This document shows, piece after piece, positions 16,948 through 48,547 of a stretch of 64,000 nucleotides of DNA. The first letter of the stretch is position 1; each line of letters starts with the position of its first letter. The notes beneath the pieces were generated by a model, which was given only the letters and a program-made list of their open reading frames with translations, was not told the origin of the DNA and made no database searches. The stretch is from an uncultured Clostridia bacterium. GTDB taxonomy: Bacteria > Bacillota > Clostridia > UBA1381. The position numbers and the translations under genes are program-made. Where the stretch lies: positions 1-64,000 of the forward strand of contig CANRKO010000006.1 of NCBI GenBank assembly GCA_947631235.1, in the 5' to 3' direction.

Positions 16948-16968
16948 CTTTTGCTCGGATTTATTGTA

Positions 16969-33372: not shown

Positions 33373-33380
33373 GTTGCATT

Positions 33381-33824: not shown

Positions 33825-33845
33825 AAAAATCACCGACCCGCTTAT

Positions 33846-33888: not shown

Positions 33889-33917
33889 ATAATTACAGCG
33901 AGGTGATTGTACAAATT

Positions 33918-34416: not shown

Positions 34417-34449
34417 AAACAAGGGCGTCGTTTTCGAGGCCCTTGTTTT
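34417..34449. terminator. Bidirectional terminator at the end of the phage operon
   Basis: AAACAAGGGC, 12-nt loop, GCCCTTGTTT with T-runs on both strands. It separates DUF1540 from the convergent amidase gene. Confidence 0.8.
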
Positions 34450-34462: not shown

Positions 34463-35212
34463 TTACCCGAACGCCTTCGCGTTATCGAGAATGACGAGCG
34501 TTCTCATCATCTCGTGCGTAAGACCGAGCCTGCCGTTTTCGTCGCCGCGCAGAAAGCCCTTGTCTTTAAGCTTTTGTACCGTGCCTCTCGCCCACTGCGG
34601 CATATTGTCGTCGATATAATCGTAAATCATCGGTTTCATGCCGTCGATCTCGCTTTTAAGTTCCTCATACTGTGTCACCGTTAATTCCTCCTTACTTTTC
34701 CCGCCGATTGCTCCGCAAATCGCACGCGCGACCGCGTCGCAGCCGACCTTTTCGTACAGTTCCGCGTCGGACTCGCTGTCGGTAAAGCACACCTCAACGA
34801 GCATCGCCTTCGCGTCTGTGTGGCGTATAACGTAAAGCGACGAGCCGTCCTTAATACCGCGGTTTTTAAAACCGAGACGGCATATCGCCCCGCACGTACG
34901 CTCCGCCTCACCAAAGCTTTTACCGCCGTACGTGTACACCTCGCAGCCATTGCCGCCGCCGGAGTTAAAATGCACCGACACGAACAAATCAAGCGGCTGC
35001 GCGTTCGCCATGCGCACTATCTCGGAAAGATTTTCGAGCGTTGTGTCGGCGTAATCGTTTGTACAGTCGTACACCGTGTGACCCTCGCCGCGCAAAAGCT
35101 CTGTGAGCCTTTTACCGACGCGGCGCGTCTCGTCGCTTTCGTTCAGATAACCCACCGCGCCGCAGCCCGGCTGACCCGACACGGTATGACCGCAGTTAAT
35201 TCCTATTCTCAT
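34463..35212 (-). CDS. Phage endolysin, N-acetylmuramoyl-L-alanine amidase (Amidase_3)
   Basis: A 249-residue zinc amidase that cuts the MurNAc-L-Ala bond. Zinc ligands and catalytic Glu are visible: GINCGHTVSG (His), ESDETRRVGKRL (Glu), FVSVHFNSGGG (His) and MLVEVCFTDSESD (Glu). After ~180 residues a C-terminal module follows (MIYDYIDDNMPQWARGTVQKL, LKDKGFLRGDENGRLGLTHE), a wall-targeting unit common in clostridial endolysins. No signal peptide, so release needs the holin. It overlaps the holin gene by 17 nt and is the last gene of the operon. Confidence 0.93.
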   Translation of the reverse strand: MRIGINCGHTVSGQPGCGAVGYLNESDETRRVGKRLTELLRGEGHTVYDCTNDYADTTLENLSEIVRMANAQPLDLFVSVHFNSGGGNGCEVYTYGGKSFGEAERTCGAICRLGFKNRGIKDGSSLYVIRHTDAKAMLVEVCFTDSESDAELYEKVGCDAVARAICGAIGGKSKEELTVTQYEELKSEIDGMKPMIYDYIDDNMPQWARGTVQKLKDKGFLRGDENGRLGLTHEMMRTLVILDNAKAFG

Positions 35213-35612
35213 CTGCTTGCTCCCTCTCTCTTATCTGCAATAAAACGTCTTTAAGTCCGTTCGGCATAATCGGCAGAATTTCAGCCGCGTTTTCAAGCAC
35301 CGATATGCCCTCGTTCGCTATATAAAACATAATGACCATCTCCCTAAGCGGCGCGGCGCTGCCCGTAATGTTCTGCACCACGTTTGCGAGCGCGACGACC
35401 ACAAGCACCGTTATTTTTCTCAAAATGCCCTTGTACCCCGCCTCGCTCGACAGCTTTTTTTGGTACACGGCTTTAATAACGCCCGTGATATAGTCGAGAA
35501 CCATAATCACCAAAAGCGCACCCAGAACCGTGTCCCACGCGCCGAATATTCTCGCTGCCATACCTCCGGCAACGCCGAGCGCGACGCTCAGAGTATTAAA
35601 TATCTTGTTCAT
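35196..35612 (-). CDS. Phage holin (TcdE/holin_4 family)
   Basis: 138 residues with about three hydrophobic helices (WDTVLGALLVIMVLDYITGV; ITVLVVVALANVVQNITG; the amphipathic MVIMFYIANEGISVLENAA). The DYITG and YKGILRK motifs are the signature of the holin_4/TcdE family, which permeabilises the membrane to free the endolysin. The ATG at 35612 is chosen (AAGGAG 10 nt upstream). Its 5' end overlaps the Tal gene and its 3' end the amidase gene: a standard lysis cassette. Confidence 0.92.
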   Translation of the reverse strand: MNKIFNTLSVALGVAGGMAARIFGAWDTVLGALLVIMVLDYITGVIKAVYQKKLSSEAGYKGILRKITVLVVVALANVVQNITGSAAPLREMVIMFYIANEGISVLENAAEILPIMPNGLKDVLLQIREREQADENRN

Positions 35613-36876
35613 TTCCTTCACTCTCCTTATCCTCAAAAATCCTTTTACCGTTCAGCAACAGATTGCCCTCGCTGTCGGTCGACAAAAGATTTGTTCCTAT
35701 CGTAATTTCATTCACGGTGACGCTTTTGGAAATCACACCGTTCGTTATCGTTCCGGAGACATACGACGCTTTGACCTTACCGCCCGACGTGGACGCCTTT
35801 TTGTACTTTTGCGTGAGAGCGCCCATCTGTTCGAGATAAAAGAACATATCCCTCTTTACGCGCCCCACCGTTATGACCGCGCTGTCGCAGTCGTAGGGGC
35901 TATATTCGATTTTAACGACCCTCTCGTAAAGTTCGTTACTGCCGTCCACGACCGTCACGCCGTCGCCTATGCTCAGCTTTTCATCCGCGCCGTAACATTC
36001 AAGCTTTGAAATCTCGGCGTACGTACCCGTGACGTTCACGCACGGAACGTCTATCCTGTCGGGATTGTCGCCGTCAAACTCCCACTTAGCGCGTCTTAGG
36101 AGTTCATCGGGCTTTGTGATGTCGCCGTAATCGCGGTAGCCGCACCGCACGCCGTATATTTCCGCGTTGGGGCTGTCCACGTACTGCGCTCCGCCGTTGA
36201 CGCTGCCTATATGCAAATCGTCTCTGCCGTAAGGGTAAAGCCGCGTCACGAGGTCTGAAATGTCGCGCTCGACGCTCAAATCACACATATTTTTCGTGAG
36301 GTCGAGCCGCACGGTCGTGTCGCGCCCTATACGCTCCACAAGCGCGATTTTGCGATTGTCGGCGTACAATTCGCCCTTGCCGCAGCACTCTATAACGTCC
36401 CTCACCACATCGTAAGGGTTGGTCTTGTCCGTCGAAAAATAATCGATCTTAAACCCGTCCGCGTCAACGCGGCGCATACCGAGCCGTTCAAGTTCACTGT
36501 CCGTCACGAGCGTAAAACCCGTGCCGGCAATCGCGTGACGTATGACCTCGGTCGGACTTACTCCTATCATATCGGGCATATTCTGTATATGCACGCCCGT
36601 CGCGTCCGCGTTCCAAATGTGGCTGCACGAGACCTCCGAAACGCCGCGCCCGTCGCGCGTGTTCGTCACCCTTATAACACGGTACGCTTGACCCTCGCAT
36701 AAAACGAGCATGTTCACGCGTATAAGCTCCGATTTTTCGTTGTCGGGATACGTGAATGTAAGCGTGCGCGCACCGTTTATCTCATGCGACACGCGCACGT
36801 TCTCCGCCTCCGCAATCGGTACGCCCTTCGTGAAATCCGACGCGCCGCCGTCCGTTATTTTAAGCAAGCGCGTCAC
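35596..36876 (-). CDS. Phage tail-associated protein (Tal / tail endopeptidase family)
   Basis: A 426-residue structural protein at the tail tip. The N-terminal ~370 residues match the gp44/Tal hub fold of siphophages: VRVSHEINGARTLTFTYPDN, then RVIRVTNTRDGRGVSEVSCS and YDVVRDVIECCGKGELYADN. The C-terminal ~50 residues are a short repeat-like tail (VNEITIGTNLLSTDSEGNLL) ending without a peptidase or fibre domain. There is no separate receptor-binding or fibre gene downstream, so the tip looks reduced. It overlaps Dit by 17 nt and the holin by 17 nt. Confidence 0.88.
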   Translation of the reverse strand: MTRLLKITDGGASDFTKGVPIAEAENVRVSHEINGARTLTFTYPDNEKSELIRVNMLVLCEGQAYRVIRVTNTRDGRGVSEVSCSHIWNADATGVHIQNMPDMIGVSPTEVIRHAIAGTGFTLVTDSELERLGMRRVDADGFKIDYFSTDKTNPYDVVRDVIECCGKGELYADNRKIALVERIGRDTTVRLDLTKNMCDLSVERDISDLVTRLYPYGRDDLHIGSVNGGAQYVDSPNAEIYGVRCGYRDYGDITKPDELLRRAKWEFDGDNPDRIDVPCVNVTGTYAEISKLECYGADEKLSIGDGVTVVDGSNELYERVVKIEYSPYDCDSAVITVGRVKRDMFFYLEQMGALTQKYKKASTSGGKVKASYVSGTITNGVISKSVTVNEITIGTNLLSTDSEGNLLLNGKRIFEDKESEGNEQDI

Positions 36877-37708
36877 CCCAATCTATATGCGAATAGTCCG
36901 CGCCGTACATATACTTAGCCTTAAAGCCGACCGTTATTATAATATTTCCCTGCGCGGAATTTGTGACGGCAACGTGGTTTATTCCCGCGGGAATTTCAAA
37001 AAACTCACCCGTCACGCCGACCAAGCCGTCGCCCGCTTTAACGGTCTGCTTTTCAAAATCAGCCGTAACGCTTTTGCCGCCCGCCGAAAACGAGAGCGTT
37101 TTCCCGCCGAGCGACAGCGTGATACCGCCTGTCTTACCCGTGATTTTTATAACGGGGCTTACGGGCATATCGCCGAAATTTACTATGCAGATGTTACCAC
37201 TGCCGTCTAACGTGTACGTGTACGCGCAGTCGGTGGACAGCGGTATCTCGCTGTCAAGCTGCAGCGGATGACCGATAAGTGGACCCTCCGTACCGAAAAG
37301 AGCCTCGCCGAACGGCTCGGCGGAGAAGGAGACCTCCAACTCCGCCTTTGTGCCGCCGTGTTCGGGCATATACGCGATTTCGTCCGTAACTCTCGCCTTC
37401 CACACGACAAGCGGCAAATCGTCAAAAATAAGCTCGCCGCTGCCGGTGAGCCACAGAGCGAGTTTTGAGATTTTACCCTGCAGCGCGGCGAGGTTGTCGG
37501 CGGTAATACCGAGCGAAAGAACAAACGTCCTTTTCGCGTAATGCTCCCTGCCGTGCGGATTGGCTTTTGAAAAATCGTACTCGCCGTCACGGTACGGGAG
37601 ATCCGACGTGAATGATTTTACGCCCGCCGTTATCGGGCGCGACTTTGTTCTGACCGTCACGCCGAACTCGGACGAATGACGGTTTTTAAATGTGAACCCG
37701 TTTCTCAT
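36860..37708 (-). CDS. Phage distal tail protein (Dit, Sipho_tail)
   Basis: A 282-residue Dit protein, the hexameric ring joining tail tube to tip. It opens with FTFKNRHSSEFGVTVRTKSRPI, followed by the LPYRDGEYDF segment and the galectin-like C-terminal half (ISLGGKTLSFSAGG). Length is that of the minimal Dit without extra carbohydrate-binding modules. Between tape measure and Tal, its canonical position in Gram-positive siphophages. Confidence 0.9.
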   Translation of the reverse strand: MRNGFTFKNRHSSEFGVTVRTKSRPITAGVKSFTSDLPYRDGEYDFSKANPHGREHYAKRTFVLSLGITADNLAALQGKISKLALWLTGSGELIFDDLPLVVWKARVTDEIAYMPEHGGTKAELEVSFSAEPFGEALFGTEGPLIGHPLQLDSEIPLSTDCAYTYTLDGSGNICIVNFGDMPVSPVIKITGKTGGITLSLGGKTLSFSAGGKSVTADFEKQTVKAGDGLVGVTGEFFEIPAGINHVAVTNSAQGNIIITVGFKAKYMYGADYSHIDWGDALA

Positions 37709-37720
37709 TATGTATCCCCC

Positions 37721-39469
37721 TTAATAAAAAATACCGTGCGCGATAGAACCCGACACGCGGTTCTGCAGCGCGTCGAGCGCACTGCTGCCGTTTGAGTTGA
37801 TGCTTATGTTCCTGTTGTCCGAATAGGAGTTCTGCGACACGCGTATACCCTTTATCGCGCTTATGGTCTGTTTGAAAAGAGATGTGATCGTACTCTGCAT
37901 GCTCTCGATGTCGTAGCGCGCTCCACTCACTATTCCTTCAAGGTTCAGACCGCTTTTTTCTATCGCCGCGAGGACATACTTTTTGTTGTCCTCTATCCTT
38001 GCGTAGTTTTCCTCCAAATCGGTAACAATGGCGGTATGTTTCTTCTGCAGCGCGTACATTTCTTCCTCGCGGCGCAGCTTTTTCATTTCCTCTTGGAGCG
38101 ATTTGTACTCGTCGCGTCCGCGCTGCGTCACCGCGCCCTCGAATATTTCAAGCCTCTCGGAAATCTCCGCCTTCGACGCTTTTCTGTCGCTTACCTCCCA
38201 CTTTTCGGAAAGTGCGTCCTCCTCGTCGGCAAACTCGGCTTTAACGTCCTTTATGTACTGTTTCTGCATTTTCAAAAGCTCACTTACCGCGTCCGCCTTC
38301 GCGCCGTACAACTTCAGCGTGGTATCCATCGTGTCGTCGCGGTACTCCTGCCAGTCGATAAAGCCGCCCTCGTACATTTCCTTTATCCTTTGAATCGAGC
38401 GTTCGTAAAATTTAATCTTACTGTCGCCGCTTTCCTCCCAGTCGTCGTACGCGTCGCGTATCTTCATCCAGTTTTCCGCGTCGCTCTGCCATTTCTCATA
38501 CACGGCGTGATTGTTTTCTTTTTCGAGCAGTCCTATCTTTAAATCGACGCCCGCCTTGTACTCGTAGAAATCATCCCAAACCGCTTTAAGCTCGTCGGAC
38601 GTGTACTCCGTGGACGCGACCATATCCGACACCATCGCGTTGTAATTGTAAAGCTGACGCTTGTACGCGTCAATCTGCTCCCGCACGCCCATGTCGTTTA
38701 CCTGCGTCTCGTACTTTATCCACGCGTCGGAATTTTTCTTGTAATCGGAAAGAGCCTCGTCGTTAGCCTTTTTGCGTTCTTTAAGCGCCTTTTCCTGCTC
38801 CGCGATAACCTTCTTTTCCGCCGCGAAAATTTCTTCCTCGATCTCGCGCATTACCTCGCTGTCGTAGGAAAAACGCGCCATCATTTCCTTCCACGCCTCA
38901 AGCTCCTCCGCGGGCGAAACGTCATGCGTCTTTTTATAATGCGTAAAATCCGACTTCGCGGTGTTAAACGCCTCGTTATTCTTACCCGACGCGTAACGCG
39001 GCACGCCGAGAGCAGCCATAATGCTTTTCGTCTCGGAGGCAGTGTACACCTTGTCGCCCTTTCCAAGCGGCACAAGGACGTTGCGCCCGTTAAACATCAC
39101 GAGCGAGCCGTTATGCTCTATAAGCTCCCTCGGGTCGGACGCGCCCATTTCGTCGTTTACGAGCGACAGACCGCCCAAAGCGTTACCCGTTCCCTTCGCG
39201 AGTTTCGGAATACTCGATACGGCGTAGTGCACGCTAATCGTTACGGTCTTGTCCTTTACGCTTGCAATACTTTCCTGCGCGCTTGCGACGCCCTCGGCAG
39301 TGTTGTCAACGGCTGTGAAACTTATTTTCGCCTCTTTGCCGTCAAAGTCTCTCATAAGCGAACCGGCTGACTCGCGCAAAGCCGCCGCCTCCGCCTCAGC
39401 CGCGCGCAGCGAGGACATAAGCCCCGACGCGTCGCCCGTAATCGAAACCGATAAATTTGCAGCCTCCAT
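37721..39469 (-). CDS. Phage tail tape-measure protein (short)
   Basis: 582 residues. It is assigned by position between gpG/gpGT and Dit, by helical heptad-rich composition (RFSYDSEVMREIEEEIFAAE; YALQKKHTAIVTDLEENYAR) and by the N-terminal VSITGDASGLMSSLRAAEAE typical of tape measures. Tape-measure length sets tail length; by the usual ~0.15 nm per residue this would be roughly 90 nm, at the short end. It lacks the hydrophobic pore-like and peptidase segments of many tape measures. ATG 39469 has GGAGG 7 nt upstream; ATG 39475 overlaps the gpGT stop. Confidence 0.85.
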   Translation of the reverse strand: MEAANLSVSITGDASGLMSSLRAAEAEAAALRESAGSLMRDFDGKEAKISFTAVDNTAEGVASAQESIASVKDKTVTISVHYAVSSIPKLAKGTGNALGGLSLVNDEMGASDPRELIEHNGSLVMFNGRNVLVPLGKGDKVYTASETKSIMAALGVPRYASGKNNEAFNTAKSDFTHYKKTHDVSPAEELEAWKEMMARFSYDSEVMREIEEEIFAAEKKVIAEQEKALKERKKANDEALSDYKKNSDAWIKYETQVNDMGVREQIDAYKRQLYNYNAMVSDMVASTEYTSDELKAVWDDFYEYKAGVDLKIGLLEKENNHAVYEKWQSDAENWMKIRDAYDDWEESGDSKIKFYERSIQRIKEMYEGGFIDWQEYRDDTMDTTLKLYGAKADAVSELLKMQKQYIKDVKAEFADEEDALSEKWEVSDRKASKAEISERLEIFEGAVTQRGRDEYKSLQEEMKKLRREEEMYALQKKHTAIVTDLEENYARIEDNKKYVLAAIEKSGLNLEGIVSGARYDIESMQSTITSLFKQTISAIKGIRVSQNSYSDNRNISINSNGSSALDALQNRVSGSIAHGIFY

Positions 39470-39471
39470 AT

Positions 39472-39935
39472 TCATACCTCCCTTCCGTAAAACATGTTAA
39501 GATAATCGTCCGCTTTTTCTCCCGTTTCCTCCGCGTCCTCTCCGAGACTGTCCAGAAGTTTCATGAGAACCCACGGATTTTGCCTTCCCACCTCGTCGGG
39601 CAGAAGGTGGTGGTACTTGAGGAACAGCGCGTATATGTCCCTCAAAGCACCGCCCTCCCCCGACCTTACTCGTTTTTTGACGTGAGTGCGTCAATGTAAA
39701 ACAACCACAATGTGCGGCACATTTTACCGAGCACGCCTACGTCCATTTTGTCGATCACGTCCTGCGTGACATCCGTACCCTCGAACAGATAATCCACCGC
39801 GTTTCGGCAGTGTCTTAAATATCCGCTGTCCTCGTTTTGCATATGCGAGTCGTTTATGATGCACATGGTCTCAAAGTCAAACGGCTTTGAAGTATACTTT
39901 TTGCCGTCCTTTTCATATGTAAGCGTGTGCTGCAT
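39472..39935 (-). CDS. Tail assembly chaperone gpGT, -1 frameshift product
   Basis: It shares the start of gpG, then shifts -1 at the slippery heptamer A-AAA-AAC (plus-strand 39672-39678), which is in the right phase (TCA AAA AAC). The -1 frame is open from there to a TGA at 39472-39474, giving 154 residues. The extension reads LRDIYALFLKYHHLLPDEVG, then QNPWVLMKLLDSL, a typical gpGT extension that begins with a Tyr/Phe/Leu-rich helix. Its stop overlaps the ATG at 39475. A TTG 8 nt after GGGAGGG could also start it independently, but the slippery site makes frameshifting likelier. Confidence 0.8.
39666..39935 (-). CDS. Tail assembly chaperone gpG
   Basis: 89 residues, the unshifted product. 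MQHTLTYEKDGKKYTSKPFD with a FETMCIINDSHM segment, a CRNAVDYLFEGTDVTQDVID helix and the end LWLFYIDALTSKNE fit gpG-type chaperones (GP13-like/phage_TAC). It is located between the major tail protein and the tape measure, as always in siphophages. gpG and gpGT coat the tape measure before the tube polymerises; their ratio is set by the frameshift frequency. Confidence 0.85.
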   Translation of the reverse strand: MQHTLTYEKDGKKYTSKPFDFETMCIINDSHMQNEDSGYLRHCRNAVDYLFEGTDVTQDVIDKMDVGVLGKMCRTLWLFYIDALTSKNE

Positions 39936-39939
39936 ATTT

Positions 39940-40536
39940 TTACACCTCCGGATAGTAGCTCATATCCGAGAACCACTTTTCCTCGAACTGCTCACGCGTC
40001 ACGCCTTCGGGAAGGTCGCTCTCGTCGAAGTACGCGTAGTAGTTATTGTCAAAGTCGCGCTGCACCGCCGTGTACGTCGCCTTCGCGGTCTGCTTGTCCA
40101 CGCTGCCCGACGACGACTTTGTCTTGCCGCCGACGTTTGACGCGAACGAGTAGCTGCCCTTGTAGTATCTGACGTAGCGGTACGAGCCGTCGGACTTCAA
40201 AATCCTCCATGCCACGCCGAAGTAAACCGTCTTTGAGTCCGAGCCTACCTCGACCACGCCGTGCTTTCTCTCGCAGCCGCGCCACATCGCGTCGACCTCG
40301 GGAGGAATATCCGCGCTCGTAATTTCATGGCCGAGTTTTTCTATGTAACTCGACGTTTCATACGCGCCGTTGTCGGCGTCGAATACGTCGCTGCCGCCCG
40401 CATCGGTCGGCGCGATCTCGACCGTGCCCTTTAACGCGTAAGCCTCGTCGTACTCCGCGCCTTCCGCGCTGTCCGATGTAAGCTTAAAAAAGGTGTAACG
40501 GTCTACGCCTATTGTTGGTAACGGTTTCTTTATCAT
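39940..40536 (-). CDS. Phage major tail (tube) protein
   Basis: A 198-residue tube subunit of the phi13-type major tail family. Features: LPTIGVDRYTFFKLTSDSAE at the start, the beta-rich middle with GTVEIAPTDAGG and ITSADIPPEVDAMW, and GVAWRILKSDGSYRYVRYYK, which is the long beta-hairpin of tube proteins. No Ig-like decoration domain. It stops 4 nt before gpG and begins 12 nt after the tail-completion gene. Confidence 0.88.
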   Translation of the reverse strand: MIKKPLPTIGVDRYTFFKLTSDSAEGAEYDEAYALKGTVEIAPTDAGGSDVFDADNGAYETSSYIEKLGHEITSADIPPEVDAMWRGCERKHGVVEVGSDSKTVYFGVAWRILKSDGSYRYVRYYKGSYSFASNVGGKTKSSSGSVDKQTAKATYTAVQRDFDNNYYAYFDESDLPEGVTREQFEEKWFSDMSYYPEV

Positions 40537-40548
40537 TTCAATTCTCCT

Positions 40549-40890
40549 TTACACGTTAAAATATTTGTGAAATCTCATTGTTTTGTGATATAATGCTCCG
40601 CCGTTTTCGGGAACGTCGGCTGACATTTCACGCGTCCAGCCGTCCGCCGTCATAACGTCGTTTGCGCGGAGCGTTATCTCGCCGCACTCGCGCGCCGAGC
40701 ATGCCCATACGTCAAGCTGAACGTAGCCCGACTGCACTCTTTCCGTATTATCCGCGTAGAGCGCGCCGTGTTCGGTCACGTTGTAGTAGCTTACCACGGG
40801 CATTTTTTTAAAGTCGCGCGGATGCTGATGCGTTATGCGGCAGCCGAGCTTTTTGAGCGTTTTTTCCGCCTCGTAATTTATATCGAGCAT
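40549..40890 (-). CDS. Phage tail-completion-like protein (DUF806/DUF3168 type)
   Basis: 113 residues. The beginning EKTLKKLGCRITHQHPRDF, then VVSYYNVTEHGALYADNTER and VQLDVWACSARECGEITLRA, match the small head-tail completion proteins (SPP1 gp17-like) that cap the tail. The position between gp10-like and major tail supports this. It overlaps nothing and lies 11 nt from the gp10-like gene. Family naming is tentative. Confidence 0.75.
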   Translation of the reverse strand: MLDINYEAEKTLKKLGCRITHQHPRDFKKMPVVSYYNVTEHGALYADNTERVQSGYVQLDVWACSARECGEITLRANDVMTADGWTREMSADVPENGGALYHKTMRFHKYFNV

Positions 40891-40901
40891 ATCTTTTCTC
40901 C

Positions 40902-41225
40902 TTATCCCGTGATTGCAGCCGCTATCGCCGACAGAACCGCGTTTTCGTTTCCCAAAAGCGACGGAACGAGGTACGGCTGCGCAGCTGTTTTGGAAGTGCC
41001 GAACTCCACGTAGGCGGCGTAATCGGTGTTCGCGGAAATTTCCGCGCTCGTGCCGCTAAGCGACACGGCTATTGAGTCACGGAGCGCACCGGTGTCCACG
41101 GGGCAGACGCTCCGCGCATTGTCGGCGACAGTCTCCGCGCCGGCAGCCACAGCCGCTTTCACTCTTTCCTCAATCTGCGCCGCCAATAATTCAAACGAGC
41201 CGTTGTATGTAACATTAACTTTCAT
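40902..41225 (-). CDS. HK97 gp10-like head-tail protein
   Basis: 107 residues with the gp10 hallmark PVDTGALRDSIAV near the middle, the YAAYVEFGTSK strand and the conserved QPYLVPSLLGNE end. Proteins of this family act at the head-tail junction. The ATG at 41225 is chosen (AAGGAG 8 nt upstream); the TTG at 41231 falls in that spacer. It overlaps the head-closure gene by 11 nt. Confidence 0.9.
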   Translation of the reverse strand: MKVNVTYNGSFELLAAQIEERVKAAVAAGAETVADNARSVCPVDTGALRDSIAVSLSGTSAEISANTDYAAYVEFGTSKTAAQPYLVPSLLGNENAVLSAIAAAITG

Positions 41226-41532
41226 TTTCAACGCTCCTTATAAGAGCCGTGACGCCCAGCGACCATTCCTCGGTATCGACTATCCTGTACCAGCAGTCCG
41301 CGAACTTTACCATGTTGCCCGTTTTTATAATATCCCGCTTGTCCGCGTACAGCTTGTACATTTTTTCGGAGGACAAGCCGTAAGGCTTATCCTCCGTATT
41401 GCCGGTGTACGGCTGAAGGTCGCATATGATTTTGCCGAGGTACGTTTTCGCGTCGCCGTCGGTGTAGCCGTTATCGACGCGGCTGTATATTTCGGCGGGC
41501 GTGTCGTAAAATCTTTCAAACGGATTAAGCAT
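41215..41532 (-). CDS. Phage head-closure/connector protein
   Basis: 105 residues: LNPFERFYDTPAEIYSRVDN, then LGKIICDLQPYTGNTEDKPY and FADCWYRIVDTEEWSLGVTA, matching the small SPP1 gp16/HK97 gp7-like head-closure group. The ATG at 41532 follows GGAGGGC; the ORF extension to 41571 is an antisense or out-of-frame tail of the upstream gene. It overlaps both neighbours, as in tightly packed phage operons. Confidence 0.8.
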   Translation of the reverse strand: MLNPFERFYDTPAEIYSRVDNGYTDGDAKTYLGKIICDLQPYTGNTEDKPYGLSSEKMYKLYADKRDIIKTGNMVKFADCWYRIVDTEEWSLGVTALIRSVENES

Positions 41533-41881
41533 TTTTCCTGCCCTCCAAATCCGACGGCACAAACGCGGCATGGCTTATAAACGGTTTTAAGCGTTCCCTG
41601 TACTCCGACATAAAGCCCGCGCCCGCGGCGCCGTACTCGACGCGTCTCTCACCCTCCGTCAGACTGACGACGCCGCCCGACGCGTTTTCACGGTACCGCG
41701 CGGCAGCCATCGACGGTATAAAGCCTTCAAGATGACGCGGCATAACGTCTATGTGGCAGTACGACATCACCGCGTCAACCGTGTCTTTGATAAGAAACGT
41801 GAGAAGTTCGTCGCTTTCGTCGTTCTTTATCCCGAGCAGCAGTTTTGCCGCGCCGAGAAGTTCCGTATTTTTATCCTCCAT
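41525..41881 (-). CDS. Phage gp6-like head-tail connector
   Basis: 118 residues, helical, with the adaptor signature AKLLLGIKNDESDELLTFLI, DTVDAVMSYCHIDVMP and MAAARYRENAS. gp6/gp15-type adaptors ring the portal after packaging. The start ATG at 41881 (AAAGGG 11 nt upstream) is preferred over the GTG at 41890, but either is possible. 24 nt from the capsid gene. Confidence 0.85.
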   Translation of the reverse strand: MEDKNTELLGAAKLLLGIKNDESDELLTFLIKDTVDAVMSYCHIDVMPRHLEGFIPSMAAARYRENASGGVVSLTEGERRVEYGAAGAGFMSEYRERLKPFISHAAFVPSDLEGRKNA

Positions 41882-41905
41882 AGCAATCACTGCCCTTTCT
41901 CAAAA

Positions 41906-42730
41906 TTATTCCTCCGACTTGTACACGTAAATCGCGTTTTTCTTATTATTGAGCACAAACGCGTCGTAGTATACTCTGCCCTCGACGAGCCAGCCGTTTA
42001 TGCCCGGCGGGTTGTCGTGTATCTTGTAATCCGACAGCTTTACGGGCGAGGTCGTCGCCGCGCTGTTCGTGATGATAAGCTCCACGTTCTCGGGGAGATA
42101 CGAGGTCGGTACGACTATCACGGGTATGCCGTCGATCGTGCCTACCTGTCCCTTTACGAGCATCTCCTGCGACATGTCGCCGCCTCTTACAAAGCTTGAA
42201 TCCTCCTTGACGCACTTGTAGAAGTTGCTCGAAACGAACGCCGCCGTGCCGGCAAGCGGTACGCACTCGTCGATAAGCGCAGCCGTGCCGGTAAGGAATA
42301 TATCATACGCGTTCGACTTCGTGACCGTTCCCGTCTCGGTCTTTTCCGCGCCCTCGGCTATCTTCTCGAAACGGTACTTGTCTATCTCCGGTATCACAAC
42401 CTCGCGCAATTGTCTCTGCAATGCCGCGCCCGCAGCGTTCGCCATCTGCGTGTCGTTATATGTACCGCGGTCGATCGTGAACGTAAAGCTGCGGTCCTTC
42501 GTCATCGTCATTTCCTGGACGGTGTTCTGAAGTTCCGACGGCGTTCCGTAGCGGCTCGACGCGCCGTTTATGTTGTAGTCGTTCATCTCGGCTGTCGGCA
42601 CGGTGTAGACGTTTACCGTCTTTACGCCTACAAAATCGTAGTCGCTGTTTACCGCGCTCGAAGTGAGCGATTCTCTCGTGAATTTTTCGTCAATTTTCTG
42701 AGCGTATTTACTTGCGTAATTTATTGCCAA
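41906..42730 (-). CDS. Phage major capsid protein
   Basis: A 274-residue capsid protein. The opening AINYASKYAQKIDEKFTRES and the middle KDRSFTFTIDRGTYNDTQMA, then VVIPEIDKYRFEKIAEGAEK, are typical of short HK97-fold capsid proteins of Firmicute siphophages that use a separate scaffold (the next gene upstream). No delta domain or protease is present, consistent with the scaffold system. DNPPGINGWLVEGRVYYDAF is near the C-terminus. Preceded by a good ribosome binding site. Confidence 0.9.
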   Translation of the reverse strand: MAINYASKYAQKIDEKFTRESLTSSAVNSDYDFVGVKTVNVYTVPTAEMNDYNINGASSRYGTPSELQNTVQEMTMTKDRSFTFTIDRGTYNDTQMANAAGAALQRQLREVVIPEIDKYRFEKIAEGAEKTETGTVTKSNAYDIFLTGTAALIDECVPLAGTAAFVSSNFYKCVKEDSSFVRGGDMSQEMLVKGQVGTIDGIPVIVVPTSYLPENVELIITNSAATTSPVKLSDYKIHDNPPGINGWLVEGRVYYDAFVLNNKKNAIYVYKSEE

Positions 42731-42751
42731 CTAAATCAGTCCTTTCCTGTA

Positions 42752-43255
42752 TTAAAATCCCAGACCGTTCAGGAACGGGTCGAACGGCTGTTCCTTTTCC
42801 TTCGAAACGCGCGGAAGTCTGCCCTTTAAACGGTCTGTAAGTCCTGTCTCGATAGCTTTGAGATACTCTGTCTTGAACGCCGAAATATTCTCCAGCATCA
42901 CGTCCTTGTCGCCGTCCGCGACAAAACGCGCAAACGTCACGGGGAGGTTCTGCGCCGTAAGCTCCTTCGCCGCCTCAAACTCGGCTCTCTCGCTCACATA
43001 CTCGGCTCTCTCGTTTTCAAAGTCTCTGCGGCTCTTTTCGATTTCCGCCTTAGCCCTTTCCTCCGAGGACATGGACGCCATTTTCGCCGCGTCCTCGCGT
43101 TCGGCCGCTATGCGCGTTTCTATCTCCTTGCCGAAGGACTGTTTCATATCCTCCAGAGCCTCGCTGACGTACTGCTTTATTGCCGCCTTAATATCCGCGC
43201 CGTTCTTTTTCTCGTCGGCGGAGTCAAGCCTTTCTTTGTTGTTCTTTTCGTTCAT
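42752..43255 (-). CDS. Phage capsid scaffolding protein (DUF4355 family)
   Basis: 167 residues, highly charged, coiled-coil in the middle (EIETRIAAEREDAAKMASMS, ERAKAEIEKSRRDFENERAE), then the typical scaffold C-terminus (PVTFARFVADGDKDVMLENI, with a short basic/Pro-Phe end). It directs capsid assembly and is removed afterwards. It overlaps the portal stop by 4 nt and precedes the capsid gene, its canonical place. Confidence 0.9.
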   Translation of the reverse strand: MNEKNNKERLDSADEKKNGADIKAAIKQYVSEALEDMKQSFGKEIETRIAAEREDAAKMASMSSEERAKAEIEKSRRDFENERAEYVSERAEFEAAKELTAQNLPVTFARFVADGDKDVMLENISAFKTEYLKAIETGLTDRLKGRLPRVSKEKEQPFDPFLNGLGF

Positions 43256-44568
43256 ATCTTTGTCCTTTCTTTCGTTTCCTTCGCTCTTTCACGCTCACGC
43301 GCCGCTTTTGCCGCCTCTTCCTTCGCGTCGCCGACAAACGAAAGCTGGCTCAAAAGCGTTTCGCTCGCCGCTATGCCTTCGAGATTTTTTATCATCTGCG
43401 AGGTTTCAAGTTCGTTTACCGGCATGTTGCGCGTGAATACGACGTCCACTCTGTGTATCGGCACATATTCCATCGCGCCCTTTAAAGACAGGAAGTTCAC
43501 GTAAAGCTCAAAGCGTTTTTTGAGCGTTTTCGCGAAGTAACGTTCCTTGTTTCTGACGTGCTGTTCAAAGCCCATGAGCTTGTACTTTATCGCGACGCCC
43601 GACAAATTTGAGCCGAAGGTGCGGTCGCTTAAATCGGGTATCATGGAAAAGCGGTGTATATCGGTTTTTAACGCGTTCTTTAAAATTTCCACGTCGCTCT
43701 CCGACATCACCTTCGCCAGATACTTCGCGTCCGCGCCCTCGTAGCCCATGAGTATGCGCTCCTCGCGCAGCTTTTTCGCCTGCTCGCTGTCGAGGTCTAT
43801 TCCCGTCAGGAACAGGAACGCGTCCACAAACTGCTCCTTGTCGTTCACTCTGTCCGACATAAGGATATTGTACGCGTCTATGAGCGATATAAGCTGCTCA
43901 AAGTCGCCCTGCGTTTCCTCGTTGTTGCGGTATTCCAGCATCGGTATCGCGCCGAAATAATGGCGGTGCGCGCCGGTAAGACGCATATGCTCAAAGCTGT
44001 CCGCGTCGTTTTCGTATGTGTACACGCTGTTGTCGTCGCACACGACGCATACCGTGCCGGTCACGCTGCCGTCTATGCCGCGTTTACGGTAGTAATGCAC
44101 GCCGTAAAGCGGTATTTCGCCCACGCCCGCGCCGTATACGACAAACGTATTCTGCGGCGCGAGCGCGACGCTCCTCGCCTGCGAATCGCCGTCGGCGTAC
44201 ACAAGTTCGTACGCCTTGCCGTAAATGCTCATCGTCTTTTCAAGCTCCGCGTCTATTGACGGCATGTCCTGAACGATGTAGCTGTTCTTTACCGCCTCTA
44301 TGTCGTAGCCGTCCGAGCACGCGTATGATATGGGATTGCCGACAAGATAGCTTTTCGCGATGTCCACGATGTACTTCGCGTGATTGCAGACAATTCTGTT
44401 GTTCGCGGCTGCGTCGCTCCTGCGGCTGCGCGAACAGACAGCGTGCCTGCCGAGATAGTAGTCGCCAAGCTTTTTGTAGCGTTCCTGTTCGAGCGAGTGG
44501 CGCGCTATGAGTTTCGCGAGTATCGCGTCCGTCATACCGCCTTCGAGAATGTCCTCGTCAATAATCAT
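43252..44568 (-). CDS. Phage portal protein (SPP1 gp6 type)
   Basis: 438 residues. The portal dodecamer forms the DNA entry channel. Family features: LIARHSLEQERYKKLGDYYL, then NRIVCNHAKYIVDIAKSYLVG (with the conserved 'N-P-I' just after), APQNTFVVYGAGVGEIPLY, and the stem/crown region LSGVAIKYKLMGFEQHVRNKE. It ends in a basic helix (EEAAKAARERERAKETKERT). No minor head protein (gp7/Mu-F-like) gene follows, unlike most related phages. It overlaps TerL by 4 nt. Confidence 0.93.
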   Translation of the reverse strand: MIIDEDILEGGMTDAILAKLIARHSLEQERYKKLGDYYLGRHAVCSRSRRSDAAANNRIVCNHAKYIVDIAKSYLVGNPISYACSDGYDIEAVKNSYIVQDMPSIDAELEKTMSIYGKAYELVYADGDSQARSVALAPQNTFVVYGAGVGEIPLYGVHYYRKRGIDGSVTGTVCVVCDDNSVYTYENDADSFEHMRLTGAHRHYFGAIPMLEYRNNEETQGDFEQLISLIDAYNILMSDRVNDKEQFVDAFLFLTGIDLDSEQAKKLREERILMGYEGADAKYLAKVMSESDVEILKNALKTDIHRFSMIPDLSDRTFGSNLSGVAIKYKLMGFEQHVRNKERYFAKTLKKRFELYVNFLSLKGAMEYVPIHRVDVVFTRNMPVNELETSQMIKNLEGIAASETLLSQLSFVGDAKEEAAKAARERERAKETKERTKI

Positions 44569-45839
44569 AGCCTGATTTCCTTTCTGCTTACAATTCTTGC
44601 TCTGCGGTTCTGTATTTCGCTTTCCAAGGCGTAACGCACCGCGTCTATCGTGTGATTGTTTTTGTCGGGATATTCGGAGCGCAGCATGCCGTCTTTATCA
44701 CGCGCAAGCTCGTACTCCGAAAATTCCCGCGCCGCGTTCGGACACCTCACGCGGTCAATCACTATTTTTTCGAGTCCCTGCAAAAAGCGTATGCCGTACT
44801 CTATGCTGTCGGGGCCCTTTTTCGCTCCGCGCACCCTGAGACCGTAATGCCTAAACTCGTTTATGCTCTTAGGCTCGGCGCTGTCGCAGACTATCATTTT
44901 ATCCGAAAAACCCTTTTTAAATATTTTCCGCACCGCGTTTCGGTTCGTCATTCCCTTTTCGTAAATTTCGTCAAGGATAAACAGCTTGTTGTTATGCAGA
45001 TAACACACAATGTAAACGAAAGGGTCCGCCGCGTAACCGAAATCAACGCCGCAGAAAATTCTGTCAAAGCTGCCGCGTTCGGTATTGGATAATGCGCAAA
45101 GCTCAATGTTTTTAAATATTTCGCCGCCCGTTCCGGTCGGTTTGCCGAGATACTCATGGTCGTAACGTTCTTTTTGCGTCTTTTTCAGATACTCAGCCTC
45201 CAAAAAAAATTGTTCTCCGAGCCATTCCTTCGGCATATCAAGGTATGTGCTGCTGTGAGAGAGAACGTCGTTGCGGTCGGAAAAGTCAACACGGTTTACC
45301 CAGTTTCTCAGGCTTTGGGGAGGGTTGTATGAGTAGAAAACCGTGAACGACGCGCCGCCGCGCATCAGGGATTGGTTTATGTTTCGGATTTCTCTCATGC
45401 CGTGAAACTCATCCGTTTCCTCGTACCATATGTATTTTACGTAGCCTTCCGACACCTTCAGGGACTTTATTTTTTGGGGATTGTCCGCGCCGCGGAACAG
45501 TATTTTCCGACCCGTGGGCTTATATACCATTTCGGGGAGACTCGGTTTTATGACCCATTTGTCGGTCACGCCGAGCATGGATATTGCCCATTCAAGCTGT
45601 GAGAAAACGCTGTCGCGTAAGGTGTCGCCGACCTTGCGCAGTACAACCGCGTTCGCGTCGGGGCAGCGCATTACGCCGAGAATTATCTCGACGCTTATAA
45701 AGCTTGACTTACCGCTGCCGCGTCCGCCCGACAGCCATATGTGCGTGTATTTGTCACACGCTTTATGCACGTCGTAAAACGTCGGCGCGATTAGGTCGGT
45801 AAGCTTTATTGTCTTGTTTTTAGCGGATGTCGTCAACAA
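44565..45839 (-). CDS. Phage terminase large subunit (PBSX/TerL type)
   Basis: 424 residues: the packaging ATPase plus nuclease. Walker A is LSGGRGSGKSSFISVEI (residues ~34-50), Walker B is YVKYIWYEETDEF with the coupling Glu, and motif III SYNPP follows. The RNase H-like nuclease domain shows FCGVDFGYAADPF (first Asp), IVCDSAEPKSI (second Asp) and NHTIDAVRYALE (third Asp). All catalytic residues seem intact, so packaging should be possible. It overlaps the small TerS-like gene by 20 nt. Confidence 0.94.
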   Translation of the reverse strand: MLTTSAKNKTIKLTDLIAPTFYDVHKACDKYTHIWLSGGRGSGKSSFISVEIILGVMRCPDANAVVLRKVGDTLRDSVFSQLEWAISMLGVTDKWVIKPSLPEMVYKPTGRKILFRGADNPQKIKSLKVSEGYVKYIWYEETDEFHGMREIRNINQSLMRGGASFTVFYSYNPPQSLRNWVNRVDFSDRNDVLSHSSTYLDMPKEWLGEQFFLEAEYLKKTQKERYDHEYLGKPTGTGGEIFKNIELCALSNTERGSFDRIFCGVDFGYAADPFVYIVCYLHNNKLFILDEIYEKGMTNRNAVRKIFKKGFSDKMIVCDSAEPKSINEFRHYGLRVRGAKKGPDSIEYGIRFLQGLEKIVIDRVRCPNAAREFSEYELARDKDGMLRSEYPDKNNHTIDAVRYALESEIQNRRARIVSRKEIRL

Positions 45840-46017
45840 TGGTCACATCTCCGCTCTCGTCATCGTTGCCGCTTTTGAAAAGTCCGTGGTACTTTCCCAA
45901 AAGCTCCGCCGCTTTGAAGGAGTCCGAAAATTTTATGATTTCCTCGTCCTCGCGGCGCATTATGTAGGTGAGGTATTCAAGTACCTCTTTTTTGCCTGCT
46001 ATTTTTGTTCTTGCCAT
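45820..46017 (-). CDS. Terminase small subunit remnant (C-terminal part only)
   Basis: 65 residues: ARTKIAGKKEVLEYLTYIMR, then SFKAAELLGKYHGLFKSGND. The 'KEVLEYLT...KAAELLGKYHGLF' stretch is the C-terminal oligomerisation and TerL-contact region of TerS proteins. The N-terminal helix-turn-helix (about 80-100 residues in full-length relatives) is missing. ATG is preceded by GGAGC. The usual HTH is not encoded upstream, where a zinc-ribbon gene lies instead. Loss of the HTH should remove pac/cos recognition while keeping contact with TerL. Confidence 0.75.
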   Translation of the reverse strand: MARTKIAGKKEVLEYLTYIMRREDEEIIKFSDSFKAAELLGKYHGLFKSGNDDESGDVTIVDDIR

Positions 46018-46040
46018 TTTTATTGCTCCTTTCCGGTCGG

Positions 46041-46250
46041 TTATGTCCAGTACAAAAAGTCAGTTTTATGCACGCACTCCGAGCAGCCGATACATTCCTC
46101 GTCGTCGTCGAGGTAGTAGTGTTCCGGTTCAAGCGCGCCGCACACGGGGCAGACATATTCCGCGCCGTCGTCGTAGTCCGCGCCGTAGTTGCCCGTGCGG
46201 TCGCGTTCCATCGCGTATAACGCGCGCGGGTCGTCGTTGGGGTATATCAT
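46041..46250 (-). CDS. Small zinc-ribbon protein, first gene of the phage operon
   Basis: 69 residues, acidic, with CPVCGALEPEHYYLDDDEE followed by CIGCSEC: two CxxC pairs that should form one zinc site. No family is recognised; similar small zinc-ribbon genes sit near the terminase in Firmicute phages. ATG 46250 is 7 nt after AAGGAGGA; ATG 46256 abuts it. It is the first gene after the promoter at 46478, with ~220 nt of leader containing hairpin repeats. Confidence 0.8.
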   Translation of the reverse strand: MIYPNDDPRALYAMERDRTGNYGADYDDGAEYVCPVCGALEPEHYYLDDDEECIGCSECVHKTDFLYWT

Positions 46251-46274
46251 ATACATTCCTCCTTTTTTTTGTCT

Positions 46275-46409
46275 GCCTCCCCTATTAGGGGAGGTGTCGG
46301 CGTGTGCTATTGCGCAGCAATAGCTTACAAAGCCGACGGAGGGGTTTATGTTATCGGTAATAAAACCCCTCAGTCACACTTCGTGTGACAGCTCCCCTAT
46401 TAGGGGAGC
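46275..46409. repeat. Family B hairpin repeat inside the phage operon leader
   Basis: GCCTCCCCTATTAGGGGAGG...GTCGGC with an inserted GCTATTGCGCAGCAATAGC hairpin, GGAGGGGTTT, AAACCCCTCAGTCACACTTC, then CTCCCCTATTAGGGGAGCC. It is identical in layout to 50791-50926. It lies between the operon promoter and first gene, where a prophage would normally carry early genes. A family C palindrome follows at 46416-46440. Confidence 0.8.
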
Positions 46410-46477
46410 CTTTCATGGCGGGCGACCCTCGCGGTCGCCCGTCGCACAATGTCGGTACAAATTCATTTGTTGTCTGG

Positions 46478-46506
46478 ATTATATCATAAAAAGATACAAT
46501 TGTCAA
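46478..46506 (-). promoter_or_regulatory. Promoter of the phage structural operon with repressor site
   Basis: On the minus strand TTGACA (46501-46506), 17-nt spacer, TATAAT (46478-46483). The spacer and -10 hold the palindrome TATCATAAAAAGATA (46482-46496, TATC-N7-GATA). A second ATAAAAAGATA is at 46519-46529 and a related inverted site (GATACTTTTTAG) near 46567. Confidence 0.85.
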
Positions 46507-46588
46507 GAGAAGTGTGTTATAAAAAGATATTTTATCTACTTTATACTAAATTTTATAAATTTTTCAGATACTTTTTAGTGTTTTTCTA

Positions 46589-46617
46589 TTGACACGCATG
46601 GATTTTTATGATACTAT
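46589..46617 (+). promoter_or_regulatory. Promoter of the LexA/CI-like repressor gene
   Basis: TTGACA, 17-nt spacer, TACTAT. The end of the spacer plus -10 reads TTTTTATGATA (46603-46613), the same 11 bases in the same place as in the divergent operon promoter, predicting autoregulation by the same protein. Confidence 0.8.
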
Positions 46618-46649
46618 TCATACAGAAATAATTATGGGAGGGGATCAAT

Positions 46650-47276
46650 ATGACAACGGGTGAAAGGATTAAAAAGCTAAGGAAAGAACACAGGCTGACG
46701 CAGGAGGAACTCGGAAAAATGCTCGGCGTGCAGAAAGCCGCGATACAGAAGTATGAAAAAGGAACTGTTACAAATATTAAGAAGGAGTCGCTTTTAAAGC
46801 TCGCCGACATACTCGGCACGACGCCGGAGTACATACTCGGCTGGGACGGCGCGGCGAGCAGTCTCGAACCCGTGAGCGCGGCGGATTTCGTGAAAGTGCC
46901 GGTCATAGGGCGCGTCGCGGCGGGTATAAGCTGCTTTGCCGAGAACAATATCGTCGATTACGAAAGCGTTTTAAAATCCGATGTGCGCGGCAACGAGCAG
47001 TACGCGTTTCTGCGCGTTGTCGGCGACAGCATGTACCCAATGCTTATGGAAAACGACCTCGTGCTTGTGCGCTGCCAGACGACCGTTGACAGCGGCTCTA
47101 TCGCCGTTGTTATCGTTGACGGCGAGGACGGCGTTATAAAAAGGGTCGTTTACGGGGATGATTTTATTGAGCTGCAGTCGATAAACCCGATGTATCCCCC
47201 GCGCAGGTTCGAGGGGCGCGACGTGCTGCGCATACGCGTGTTCGGGCTTGTCAAGGAAGTTAAAAGGAAATTATGA
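46650..47276 (+). CDS. LexA/CI-like repressor (XRE HTH + S24 peptidase)
   Basis: 208 residues. N-terminal HTH: RIKKLRKEHRLTQEELGKML, VQKAAIQKYEKGTV, LADILGTTPEYILG. C-terminal S24 self-cleavage domain: cleavage site in VAAGISCF (Ala-Gly), catalytic Ser in VGDSMYPML, catalytic Lys in GVIKRVVYG. All residues for RecA-stimulated autocleavage are present, so induction by DNA damage is expected. GGGAGGGG precedes the ATG. It is divergent from the phage operon, with shared operator motifs. Its stop is 20 nt from the M16 peptidase ATG, so that housekeeping gene is probably co-transcribed. Confidence 0.92.
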   Translation: MTTGERIKKLRKEHRLTQEELGKMLGVQKAAIQKYEKGTVTNIKKESLLKLADILGTTPEYILGWDGAASSLEPVSAADFVKVPVIGRVAAGISCFAENNIVDYESVLKSDVRGNEQYAFLRVVGDSMYPMLMENDLVLVRCQTTVDSGSIAVVIVDGEDGVIKRVVYGDDFIELQSINPMYPPRRFEGRDVLRIRVFGLVKEVKRKL

Positions 47277-47296
47277 CACCGAAAGGAAATTCAATT

Positions 47297-48547
47297 ATGT
47301 ATCAGTTTAAAACGCTCGCAAACGGCATACGCGTTGTCGCTGAGAAGATAGATTACTTAAAGTCCGTGTCGATAGGCGTGTGGGTCGGCAACGGGTCGCG
47401 GTACGAGAGAAAAGACGTGAACGGCATATCGCATTTTATCGAGCATATGCTGTTTAAGGGTACGGAAAACCGCAGCGCGGCTGAAATCGCGCACGCGATA
47501 GACAGTATCGGCGGTCAGATCGACGCGTTCACGGGGCGCGAGTACACGTGCTTTTACACGAAAACGCTCGACGCGCACGCGCATATCGCGCTCGACGTGC
47601 TGTCGGAGATGATTTTCCGCCCCACGCTCGCGCAAAGCGATATGGTTCTCGAACGCGGCGTTATCGGTGAGGAAATTCGTATGTACGAGGACAGTCCGGA
47701 GGATCTCGTGTACGACCTTTCGTCGTTCGCGGTGTGGGGCGACACGCCCATGGGTCGGACAATTCTCGGCACGTATGAAAGTCTGGAGGGTATCACGCCG
47801 GACGTTATGCGCGATTATATGAAGAGCCACTACACGAGCGCGAACCTCATTATATCGGTAGCGGGAAATTACGGCGACGATTTCTTTGATTTGCTGGAGG
47901 AAAAATTCGGCTCGCAGAAGATAAGCGCCGTGCCGCCCATATTGCCCGAGACGGGGTACAGAAACGGTCAGACGCTCGTCAGGACGAAGGACACGGAGCA
48001 GACGCAGCTTGTGGCGACGTTTAAGGGTATAGATATTATGGACGAGGGCGTGTACAGTCTGCTCGTTATGAACAACGTTTTCGGCACGGGTATGTCGTCG
48101 AGACTGTTCCAGAAAATACGTGAGGAGCGCGGTCTGGTGTACTCGATAAGCGCGGGTCACAGCGCGTACCTCGGTACGGGCGTGTTCGATATCGCGGCAG
48201 GTATGAGGGCTGAAAGTCTGCCGGAGGTCGCGGAGCTTATTTCGCGCGAGGTAAATATTATTAAGCGCGACAAATTGAGCAGCGACGAGGTGGAACGGTC
48301 GAAGGAGCAGCTTAAGGGCAGCTATATACTCGCGAGTGAAAGCACCGGCGCGAGGATGCAGGGCGCGGGCCGGGCGCTCCTTGTCGGCAAGCCTATCTAC
48401 ACGCAGGAGGAGGTTCTCGCTCAGATCGACGCGGTGAACACTGACAGTGTCGCGGAGATGATCGACCGCGTTATGGACGCGTCTACGCTGTGTCTTGCGG
48501 CGGTGGGTCCGGTCGACAGTCTCGACGGGCTGTTCGACGTGCGGTGA
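47297..48547 (+). CDS. M16 family zinc peptidase (YmxG/MPP-like)
   Basis: A 416-residue processing-type metalloprotease. The inverted zinc motif HFIEH is in NGISHFIEHMLFKGTENRSA, with the downstream Glu in VIGEEIRMYEDSPEDLVYDL. The C-terminal half has the R/Y pair region GTGMSSRLFQKIREERGLVY. Length (one M16-M16_C pair) is as in Firmicute YmxG. ATG 47297 is chosen, with AAAGGA 8 nt upstream; the ORF extends 8 codons earlier. Substrates are unknown. It probably shares the transcript of the upstream repressor. Confidence 0.92.
   Translation: MYQFKTLANGIRVVAEKIDYLKSVSIGVWVGNGSRYERKDVNGISHFIEHMLFKGTENRSAAEIAHAIDSIGGQIDAFTGREYTCFYTKTLDAHAHIALDVLSEMIFRPTLAQSDMVLERGVIGEEIRMYEDSPEDLVYDLSSFAVWGDTPMGRTILGTYESLEGITPDVMRDYMKSHYTSANLIISVAGNYGDDFFDLLEEKFGSQKISAVPPILPETGYRNGQTLVRTKDTEQTQLVATFKGIDIMDEGVYSLLVMNNVFGTGMSSRLFQKIREERGLVYSISAGHSAYLGTGVFDIAAGMRAESLPEVAELISREVNIIKRDKLSSDEVERSKEQLKGSYILASESTGARMQGAGRALLVGKPIYTQEEVLAQIDAVNTDSVAEMIDRVMDASTLCLAAVGPVDSLDGLFDVR

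Follow-up and report, generated by a model that had tools for sequence, protein, structure and literature searches.

A conserved, repressor-controlled phage particle cluster in a family of gut Clostridia is a candidate gene transfer agent

Introduction

Six features of gene transfer agents (GTAs) are listed by Kogay et al. (PMC9662315): particle proteins derived from caudoviricetes, a content of mostly random host DNA, an endogenised and often multi-locus genome, GTA genes that are not fully packageable by their own particles, mostly vertical inheritance with host co-diversification, and delivery to other cells. Here we examine a stretch of 64,000 nucleotides from an uncultured Clostridia bacterium (positions 1 to 64,000 of contig CANRKO010000006.1, assembly GCA_947631235.1; hereafter the window), in which a compact cluster of phage head, tail, packaging and lysis genes, about 12 kb in size, lies opposite a divergent S24-type repressor gene. 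The draft genome to which the window belongs (labelled G000) comprises 2.09 Mb in 16 contigs and is 86% complete; the window is on its contig C6. An original prediction, made from the window alone, had considered the cluster a possible GTA-like element.

The closest precedent is FpGTA of Faecalibacterium (PMC12946183, Nat Commun 2026), to which we liken the cluster by description and not by sequence. As described in the accessible sections of that report, FpGTA is likewise found in gut Clostridia and has a short operon with large terminase (TerL), portal, scaffold and capsid genes and no replication genes, a small terminase (TerS) without an obvious DNA-binding domain, and a second locus with fibre/receptor-binding genes. 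It differs in being podovirus-like and in carrying its lysis genes in locus II, and those sections describe no repressor, whereas the window cluster has a siphovirus architecture, lysis genes in the main operon, a divergent S24 repressor and an operator common to both of its loci. RcGTA and its relatives (Rhodogtaviriformidae; PMC6854486, PMC9662315) resemble the cluster in vertical inheritance, in having several loci and in a TerS without the N-terminal DNA-binding domain, but they belong to a different bacterial phylum and are controlled by host regulators and the activator GafA, where the window cluster has a phage-type S24 repressor and its own operator. With PBSX of Bacillus subtilis the cluster has in common a TerL of the PBSX family. 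A repressor beside the late operon is a further likeness to PBSX, and the contractile PBSX tail is a difference. PBSX packages host DNA and does not inject it, according to PMC12946183.

Judged from its genes, the cluster is almost certainly a domesticated, complete and repressor-controlled particle system, and it is likely to package chromosomal DNA without site choice. We consider it probable that it is a GTA-type system of the host family with a domesticated siphovirus architecture; this grade covers the whole reading, including gene transfer rather than killing, which is our best guess. The system is also probably damage-inducible. Three of the six features of the PMC9662315 list are found in this system, which is known here from genes alone: caudoviricete-derived proteins, endogenisation at several loci and vertical inheritance. 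In this family of gut Clostridia an ancient phage seems to have become a heritable system under repressor control that lyses the cell and sets free virus-like particles, probably loaded with random stretches of the bacterium's chromosome. If so, this is a further GTA-type lineage, flexible-tailed and kept across six genera of gut Clostridia. A literature search, mostly of titles and the beginnings of abstracts and without preprints and most subscription papers, found no description of the cluster.

Distribution and inheritance of the compact cluster

A TerL search over 70 genomes of the family gave matches in 34, and the neighbourhoods sort into a compact cluster and a prophage type. The compact cluster is present in 27 of 29 genomes across six genera. 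The apparently cultured MD329 (L085) is one carrier. Outside the genus of the window (g1), it occurs in all five genomes of g2, both of g4, one of the two of g8, all three of g10 and the single genome of g16. Within g1, 14 of the 16 genomes have it, and G017 has a fragment at a contig edge (portal 89%). Patchy presence, named in the original prediction as evidence that would count against it, is therefore not what we see: 15 of the 16 members carry the cluster, one of them as that fragment, and the 16th keeps a remnant. In G019 the remnant, flanked by an mscL-like gene (recognised by eye) and an M16 peptidase gene, is an 88-aa fragment of the head-tail adaptor with 68% identity to its G028 counterpart; we read it as the scar left by deletion of the cluster. 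The M16 gene adjoins the cluster in g1 wherever a contig covers the junction. A prephenate dehydratase gene adjoins the repressor gene in g4 and lies about 3 kb beyond M16 in one g1 genome (G016); its placement is apparently a trace of a common ancestral neighbourhood.

No compact cluster was found in the family's other 41 genomes, six of which have TerL matches. Three of these matches (G036, G040, G047) group with prophage-type copies, and the others are at 43% (G010), 35% (G056) and 32% (G069; the neighbourhoods of the last two were not fetched). Because most genomes are incomplete drafts, the absence of the cluster in G030 (73% complete) means little. Beyond the family, the closest portal match among 25 genomes of the order is at 30%. 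Several compact clusters are interrupted by contig ends; as far as the contigs extend, gene order is uniform with the exception of G005, in which TerS and TerL are placed between the tail terminator and the major tail protein and not ahead of the portal.

A portal tree of 26 compact loci, 10 prophage-type family copies and 16 other matches places the compact loci in one clade (100/99), which also holds L101, apparently a second record of the G049 contig. The family's prophage-type copies branch outside this clade, and a TerL tree agrees weakly (82). No free phage falls inside the compact clade, with only five IMG/VR contigs in the portal tree and seven in the TerL tree; the best TerL identity to a viral locus, among the 80 kept, is 60%.

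Inheritance was assessed against RpoB in a tree covering 47 of the 70 genomes; it unites the six carrier genera with g9 and g17, two genera without the cluster, in a single clade (SH-aLRT 98). A single gain followed by losses in g9 and g17 would explain this pattern. A cluster tree built from TerL, portal, capsid and major tail protein of 26 loci recovers all genera with more than one locus (g1, g2, g4 and g10) as monophyletic. The two trees have 16 of 22 splits in common (25 common genomes; at most two in 500 relabellings), and their distances correlate with r 0.853 (Mantel test, 0 of 9999). Ratios of nonsynonymous to synonymous substitution (dN/dS, NG86) were computed for five genome pairs, giving 89 ratios for cluster genes including the repressor, although gene overlaps disturb such ratios; 83 of the 89 are ≤0.3, and the maximum, 0.65, belongs to a short head gene. 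The M16 gene, used for comparison, gives 0.05–0.09 in four pairs. TerL, portal and capsid have open frames and are under purifying selection in the tested pairs. Both checks suggested in the original prediction, vertical inheritance and purifying selection on these three genes, came out in its favour, and so did its observation of host-like codon use: the codon distance between 17 cluster genes and 28 host genes is 0.413, compared with a host-versus-host median of 0.429 and a value of 0.891 for 31 ORFs (open reading frames) from a prophage-type region on contig C2 of the same genome.

A small terminase without its DNA-binding half

Of 26 compact loci, 24 have a recognisable TerS: tblastn finds it in 21 (65–101 aa), and in three it was identified by eye (70, 72 and ≤106 aa in G004, G005 and G048, respectively); the upper lengths may contain an upstream in-frame extension. 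In G021 the contig ends at TerL. All compact TerS start where the second half of phage TerS starts, and the short form has its own start. Among five compact TerS scanned, four match Terminase_2 only within positions 97–138 of 141 and below the cut-off, and the fifth has no match; three of four scanned prophage TerS of the family match positions 1–138, the fourth matching other helix-turn-helix (HTH) families. TerS of nine prophage-type loci in the family measure 127–198 aa, and the TerS of the window matches only the C-terminal part of the annotated 145-aa TerS of Streptococcus phage Javan1. Structure modelling predicts two helices (pLDDT 75). We reject the view of this gene as a pseudogene or broken gene, since the short form is conserved across compact loci and has its own start.

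Sherlock et al. (PMC6854486) describe RcGTA gp1 as without the N-terminal DNA-binding domain and propose this as a mark of GTA-type TerS. The compact TerS has the same form, with the N-terminal domain absent and the remainder kept. A TerS without the DNA-binding half indirectly supports random packaging of host DNA, and its parallel absence in the two systems supports it as a marker of GTA-type packaging.

Layout of the locus

The cluster consists of 17 successive ORFs on the minus strand (34463–46256), the majority of which overlap or almost abut. Family matches were taken from Pfam and PHROGs, and 15 of the 17 ORFs have a head, tail, packaging or lysis match, the exceptions being an 89-aa and a 71-aa ORF. 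Transcription would proceed from the 71-aa Cys protein through TerS, TerL, portal, scaffold, capsid, head-tail adaptor, a weakly matched head protein, neck and tail terminator to the major tail protein, the 89-aa ORF, tape measure, distal tail protein (Dit), tail tip protein (Tal), holin and amidase. The original prediction had placed this run between the same promoter, a 12/12 match, and a hairpin that is visible by eye. It counted sixteen genes, all apparently intact except TerS; the head, tail and lysis set stands, with 17 ORFs, and TerS is a conserved short form and not a defective gene. The features are as follows.

~34417–34449, no strand: terminator-like hairpin at the operon end, seen by eye; a scan with loop limit 8 did not report it
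34463–35212, minus: endolysin, N-acetylmuramoyl-L-alanine amidase (PF01520, phrog_435)
35196–35636, minus: holin (PF05105)
35596–36876, minus: tail endopeptidase/tail tip protein, Tal (PF06605, PF18994)
36860–37708, minus: distal tail protein, Dit (PF05709, phrog_33)
37721–39475, minus: tape measure protein, 584 aa (phrog_1293); 492–641 aa in most relatives
39666–39935, minus: conserved 89-aa ORF upstream of the tape measure gene; no family match, kept in relatives
39940–40536, minus: major tail protein (phrog_88)
40549–40890, minus: tail terminator (phrog_78)
40902–41231, minus: HK97 gp10-like tail completion/neck protein (PF04883, phrog_5)
41215–41571, minus: head protein, probably head closure (weak; phrog_939, E 5e-4)
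41525–41890, minus: head-tail adaptor (PF05135, phrog_132)
41906–42730, minus: major capsid protein (phrog_422, E 8e-65)
42752–43255, minus: scaffolding protein (PF14265, phrog_172)
43252–44568, minus: portal, SPP1 type (PF05133, E 2e-105)
44565–45839, minus: large terminase TerL, Terminase_3/PBSX type (PF04466, PF17288, TIGR01547); conserved columns present
45820–46017, minus: short small terminase TerS, 65 aa, no N-terminal DNA-binding half (phrog_51; Terminase_2 positions 110–138 of 141, below cut-off)
46041–46256, minus: 71-aa protein; its five Cys (CPxC...CxGCxxC) are invariant in all 25 aligned sequences
46257–46470, no strand: leader separating the promoter from the first gene, with palindromic repeats; length varies among nearest relatives
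46478–46506, minus: operon promoter TTGACA-17-TATAAT, 12/12 sigma-70 (promoter scan)
46481–46497, no strand: operator ATATCATAAAAAGATAC, covering the promoter spacer and -10
46589–46617, plus: repressor promoter TTGACA-17-TACTAT; the half operator ATGATAC covers its -10
46650–47276, plus: divergent HTH-S24 repressor, 208 aa (PF01381, PF00717), with cleavage-site and Ser/Lys motifs
47273–48547, plus: host M16 peptidase, not a particle part; overlaps the stop of the repressor gene at its earliest possible start; positional marker in g1

The tail set (tail terminator, major tail protein, Dit and Tal) is of the siphovirus type. No contractile-tail gene set was found, there being no sheath-type match in Pfam or PHROGs. 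By its position alone, the 89-aa ORF is probably a tail assembly protein. The 71-aa protein is probably metal-binding (zinc ribbon or Fe-S), as its Cys pattern suggests; its predicted structure has a pLDDT of 70, and it has no match in 50,697 phage records or in 80 viral loci.

Temperate prophage traits, namely integrase, replication genes and a full-length TerS, were not found at the cluster. The claim that no integrase or replication gene lies alongside holds for the 10 flanking ORFs tested and for tyrosine integrases, with eight matches genome-wide and none on the contig of the window; serine recombinases were not sought. Among the listed families of direct repeats (20 of 33), none has copies on both flanks, so that neither att-like repeats nor a neighbouring integrase, both of which would have spoken against the original prediction, was seen in the material covered.

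Repressor and operator

The divergent S24 repressor with cleavage residues was correctly recognised from the window: it matches PF01381 and PF00717, and the alignment contains a cleavage-type site and the Ser and Lys motifs. Among relatives, the Ser motif (GDSM) and the Lys motif occur in every sequence extending that far, and the cleavage-type site is A-G (once G-G). We scanned 22 intergenic regions between the repressor and the 71-aa gene, five of them from near relatives and that of G007 shortened by an ORF call. A 17-bp near-palindrome, GTATC-N7-GATAC, has 31 sites (≤1 mismatch) in 19 of the 22 regions, against 0.14 expected. In all 12 g1 regions this operator overlaps the operon promoter, covering its spacer and -10.

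In six genomes of other genera (G008 of g4, G031 of g8, G048, G049 and G050 of g10, and G068 of g16) the spacer instead resembles the LexA box of the family. A LexA-box-like site (≤1 mismatch) is present in all six of these intergenic regions (null mean 0.87, maximum 4 in 300), with a motif picked post hoc, and LexA-box control of the cluster in g4, g8, g10 and g16 is suggestive only. The box itself, CRAAYNNNNRTTYG, is exact in 12 of 32 lexA upstream regions (null 0.26). Canonical LexA scores above the family cut-off in 35 of 54 genomes outside g1 (19 of 54 fail) and in two of 16 within g1, both weakly, and the cluster repressor is the sole LexA-type match in eight of the 16 g1 genomes. Canonical LexA thus appears to have been lost in g1, though many related genera retain it. 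In G000 there is no support for a broad LexA-like regulon under the repressor, with 32 loose sites compared with 30 in a reversed control.

A detached tail-fibre locus

A relaxed form of the operator has three exact sites in G000: at the cluster, upstream of trpS on C2 (gene named by eye; set aside as terminator-like) and on contig C13. The C13 site covers a TTGACA-17-TATAAT promoter that leads into a 90-aa ORF and a tail fibre gene (Mtd_N, weak collagen match), which is cut by the contig end. With the strict operator, the 16 genomes of the genus have 22 sites, 16 at the cluster and six elsewhere, versus four for the reversed pattern; three of the six are fibre promoters (G000, G024 and G017) and three lie within ORFs, one of them short and doubtful. 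In G026 the same operator-fibre arrangement has one mismatch. The other 16 of 20 fibre-like loci have no operator site (≤1 mismatch) in the 1.2 kb before the match, as far as sequence extended.

The fibre of G024 is complete (520 aa, with Mtd_N and a Peptidase_G2 chaperone domain), and a reading by eye of the ORFs listed for its 19.9-kb region revealed no further phage-type gene. Between G000 and G024, whose cluster genes are 95–100% identical, the first part of the fibre is almost identical and the distal part diverges, as expected if the end that binds the particle is conserved and the receptor end changes. Since a phage gains nothing from a fibre gene elsewhere on the chromosome, the arrangement fits a host-run machine, and the putative two-locus regulon of particle operon and fibre is not a phage-like design. 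Two stretches of L404 (G026) near the operator-linked fibre locus, 3172–5318 and 16623–17444, hold an integrase gene, an endolysin gene and an orphan short TerS-like ORF, which was named by eye and has no PHROG match.

These features suggest a simple switch of one repressor, one operator and two operons. The repressor would bind the 17-bp operator and hold the particle and fibre operons off. Upon DNA damage, the RecA filament would trigger its self-cleavage, and the particle operon and the fibre would then be made together. TerL and the short TerS would pack chromosomal DNA into the heads without choosing a site, the producer cell would be lysed by holin and amidase, and Tal and the fibre would dock the particles on kin and deliver the DNA. 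More tentatively, the particle repressor may in g1 be the last LexA-type sensor, so that the damage switch would have one visible output, lysis and the broadcast of DNA in fibre-aimed particles. We raise this possibility because canonical LexA is so rarely found in g1 and because the strict operator, among promoters, marks only the particle and tail-fibre operons.

Weighing the alternatives

The alternative offered in the original prediction, a prophage that recently lost its early region, could draw on the phage-type repressor with complete late genes and on the prophage-type copies with related TerL and portal in the same family. It fails because the cluster has been inherited through six genera; the distribution, the largely host-congruent tree, purifying selection, host-like codons and the conserved short TerS contradict it. 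We therefore rule out recent prophage decay as barely credible, and the cluster is, on this sequence evidence, not a decaying prophage. A particle donor for a satellite element that brings its own packaging specificity is very unlikely. With TerS missing its own DNA-binding half, that function could come from another protein, such as a satellite TerS or the conserved 71-aa Cys protein, and G026 has the orphan TerS-like ORF named by eye; however, no such satellite was met, though none was searched for, and the cluster follows the host in its inheritance rather than a mobile partner. The main rival, a PBSX-like domesticated particle for killing, which would package host DNA or none, attach by a variable fibre and kill competitors without gene delivery, we consider rather unlikely. 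Its TerL would fit, belonging to the PBSX-type family TIGR01547, and PBSX does not inject its packaged DNA, a question that PMC12946183 leaves open for FpGTA. The flexible-tail (siphovirus) genes and the lack of a sheath-type match argue against it; the purifying selection on head, TerL and connector genes does so too but weighs little, because PBSX also keeps heads.

Several observations weigh against a GTA-type system. Two splits found only in the RpoB tree, each at SH-aLRT 95, conflict with the cluster tree (g4+g8; g2+g10+g16), whose opposing deep branches are weak (56/45). A frameshift after residue 121 divides the G015 tape measure gene, and no TerS is recognisable in G050. The operator-linked fibre occurs in only four of the 16 genus genomes, and some full clusters, such as that of G023, are without any fibre match. 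A prophage origin of the G026 fibre locus is possible because of the integrase, endolysin and orphan TerS-like ORF nearby, and the strong distal-fibre difference between near-identical clusters also suits a killing particle.

Phage relatives and neighbouring genes

The prophage-type region on contig C2 (about 37–75 kb, borders approximate; L058, L320, L321) has an integrase, a 150-aa TerS and its own fibre-like gene. Its TerL is related to that of the cluster (62%) and its codon use is unlike that of the host, making it a natural control. Clusters with a divergent repressor-like gene also occur in Anaerotignum, Clostridium ASF356 and other Clostridia (L111, L114, L118, L134, L148), and we take these to be PBSX-type from their gene set. 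The ORFs in the place of TerS measure 129–199 aa in four of the five, L111, L118, L134 and L148. Given these longer ORFs and the presumed PBSX-type gene set, we reject the Lachnospirales/Anaerotignum clusters as a second compact family.

Between SecG and the operon end of the window (33360–34139), orf175 and a small HTH gene have no match in the same region of the near-identical G024, which suggests a recent insertion or loss. The regulator HTH78 (33903–34139, beside the terminator) was accordingly rejected as a part of the system, as both it and orf175 are without a match there. The leader/intergenic region measures 393, 682, 392, 478 and 478 nt in the nearest relatives and 206–389 nt in seven other members of the genus.

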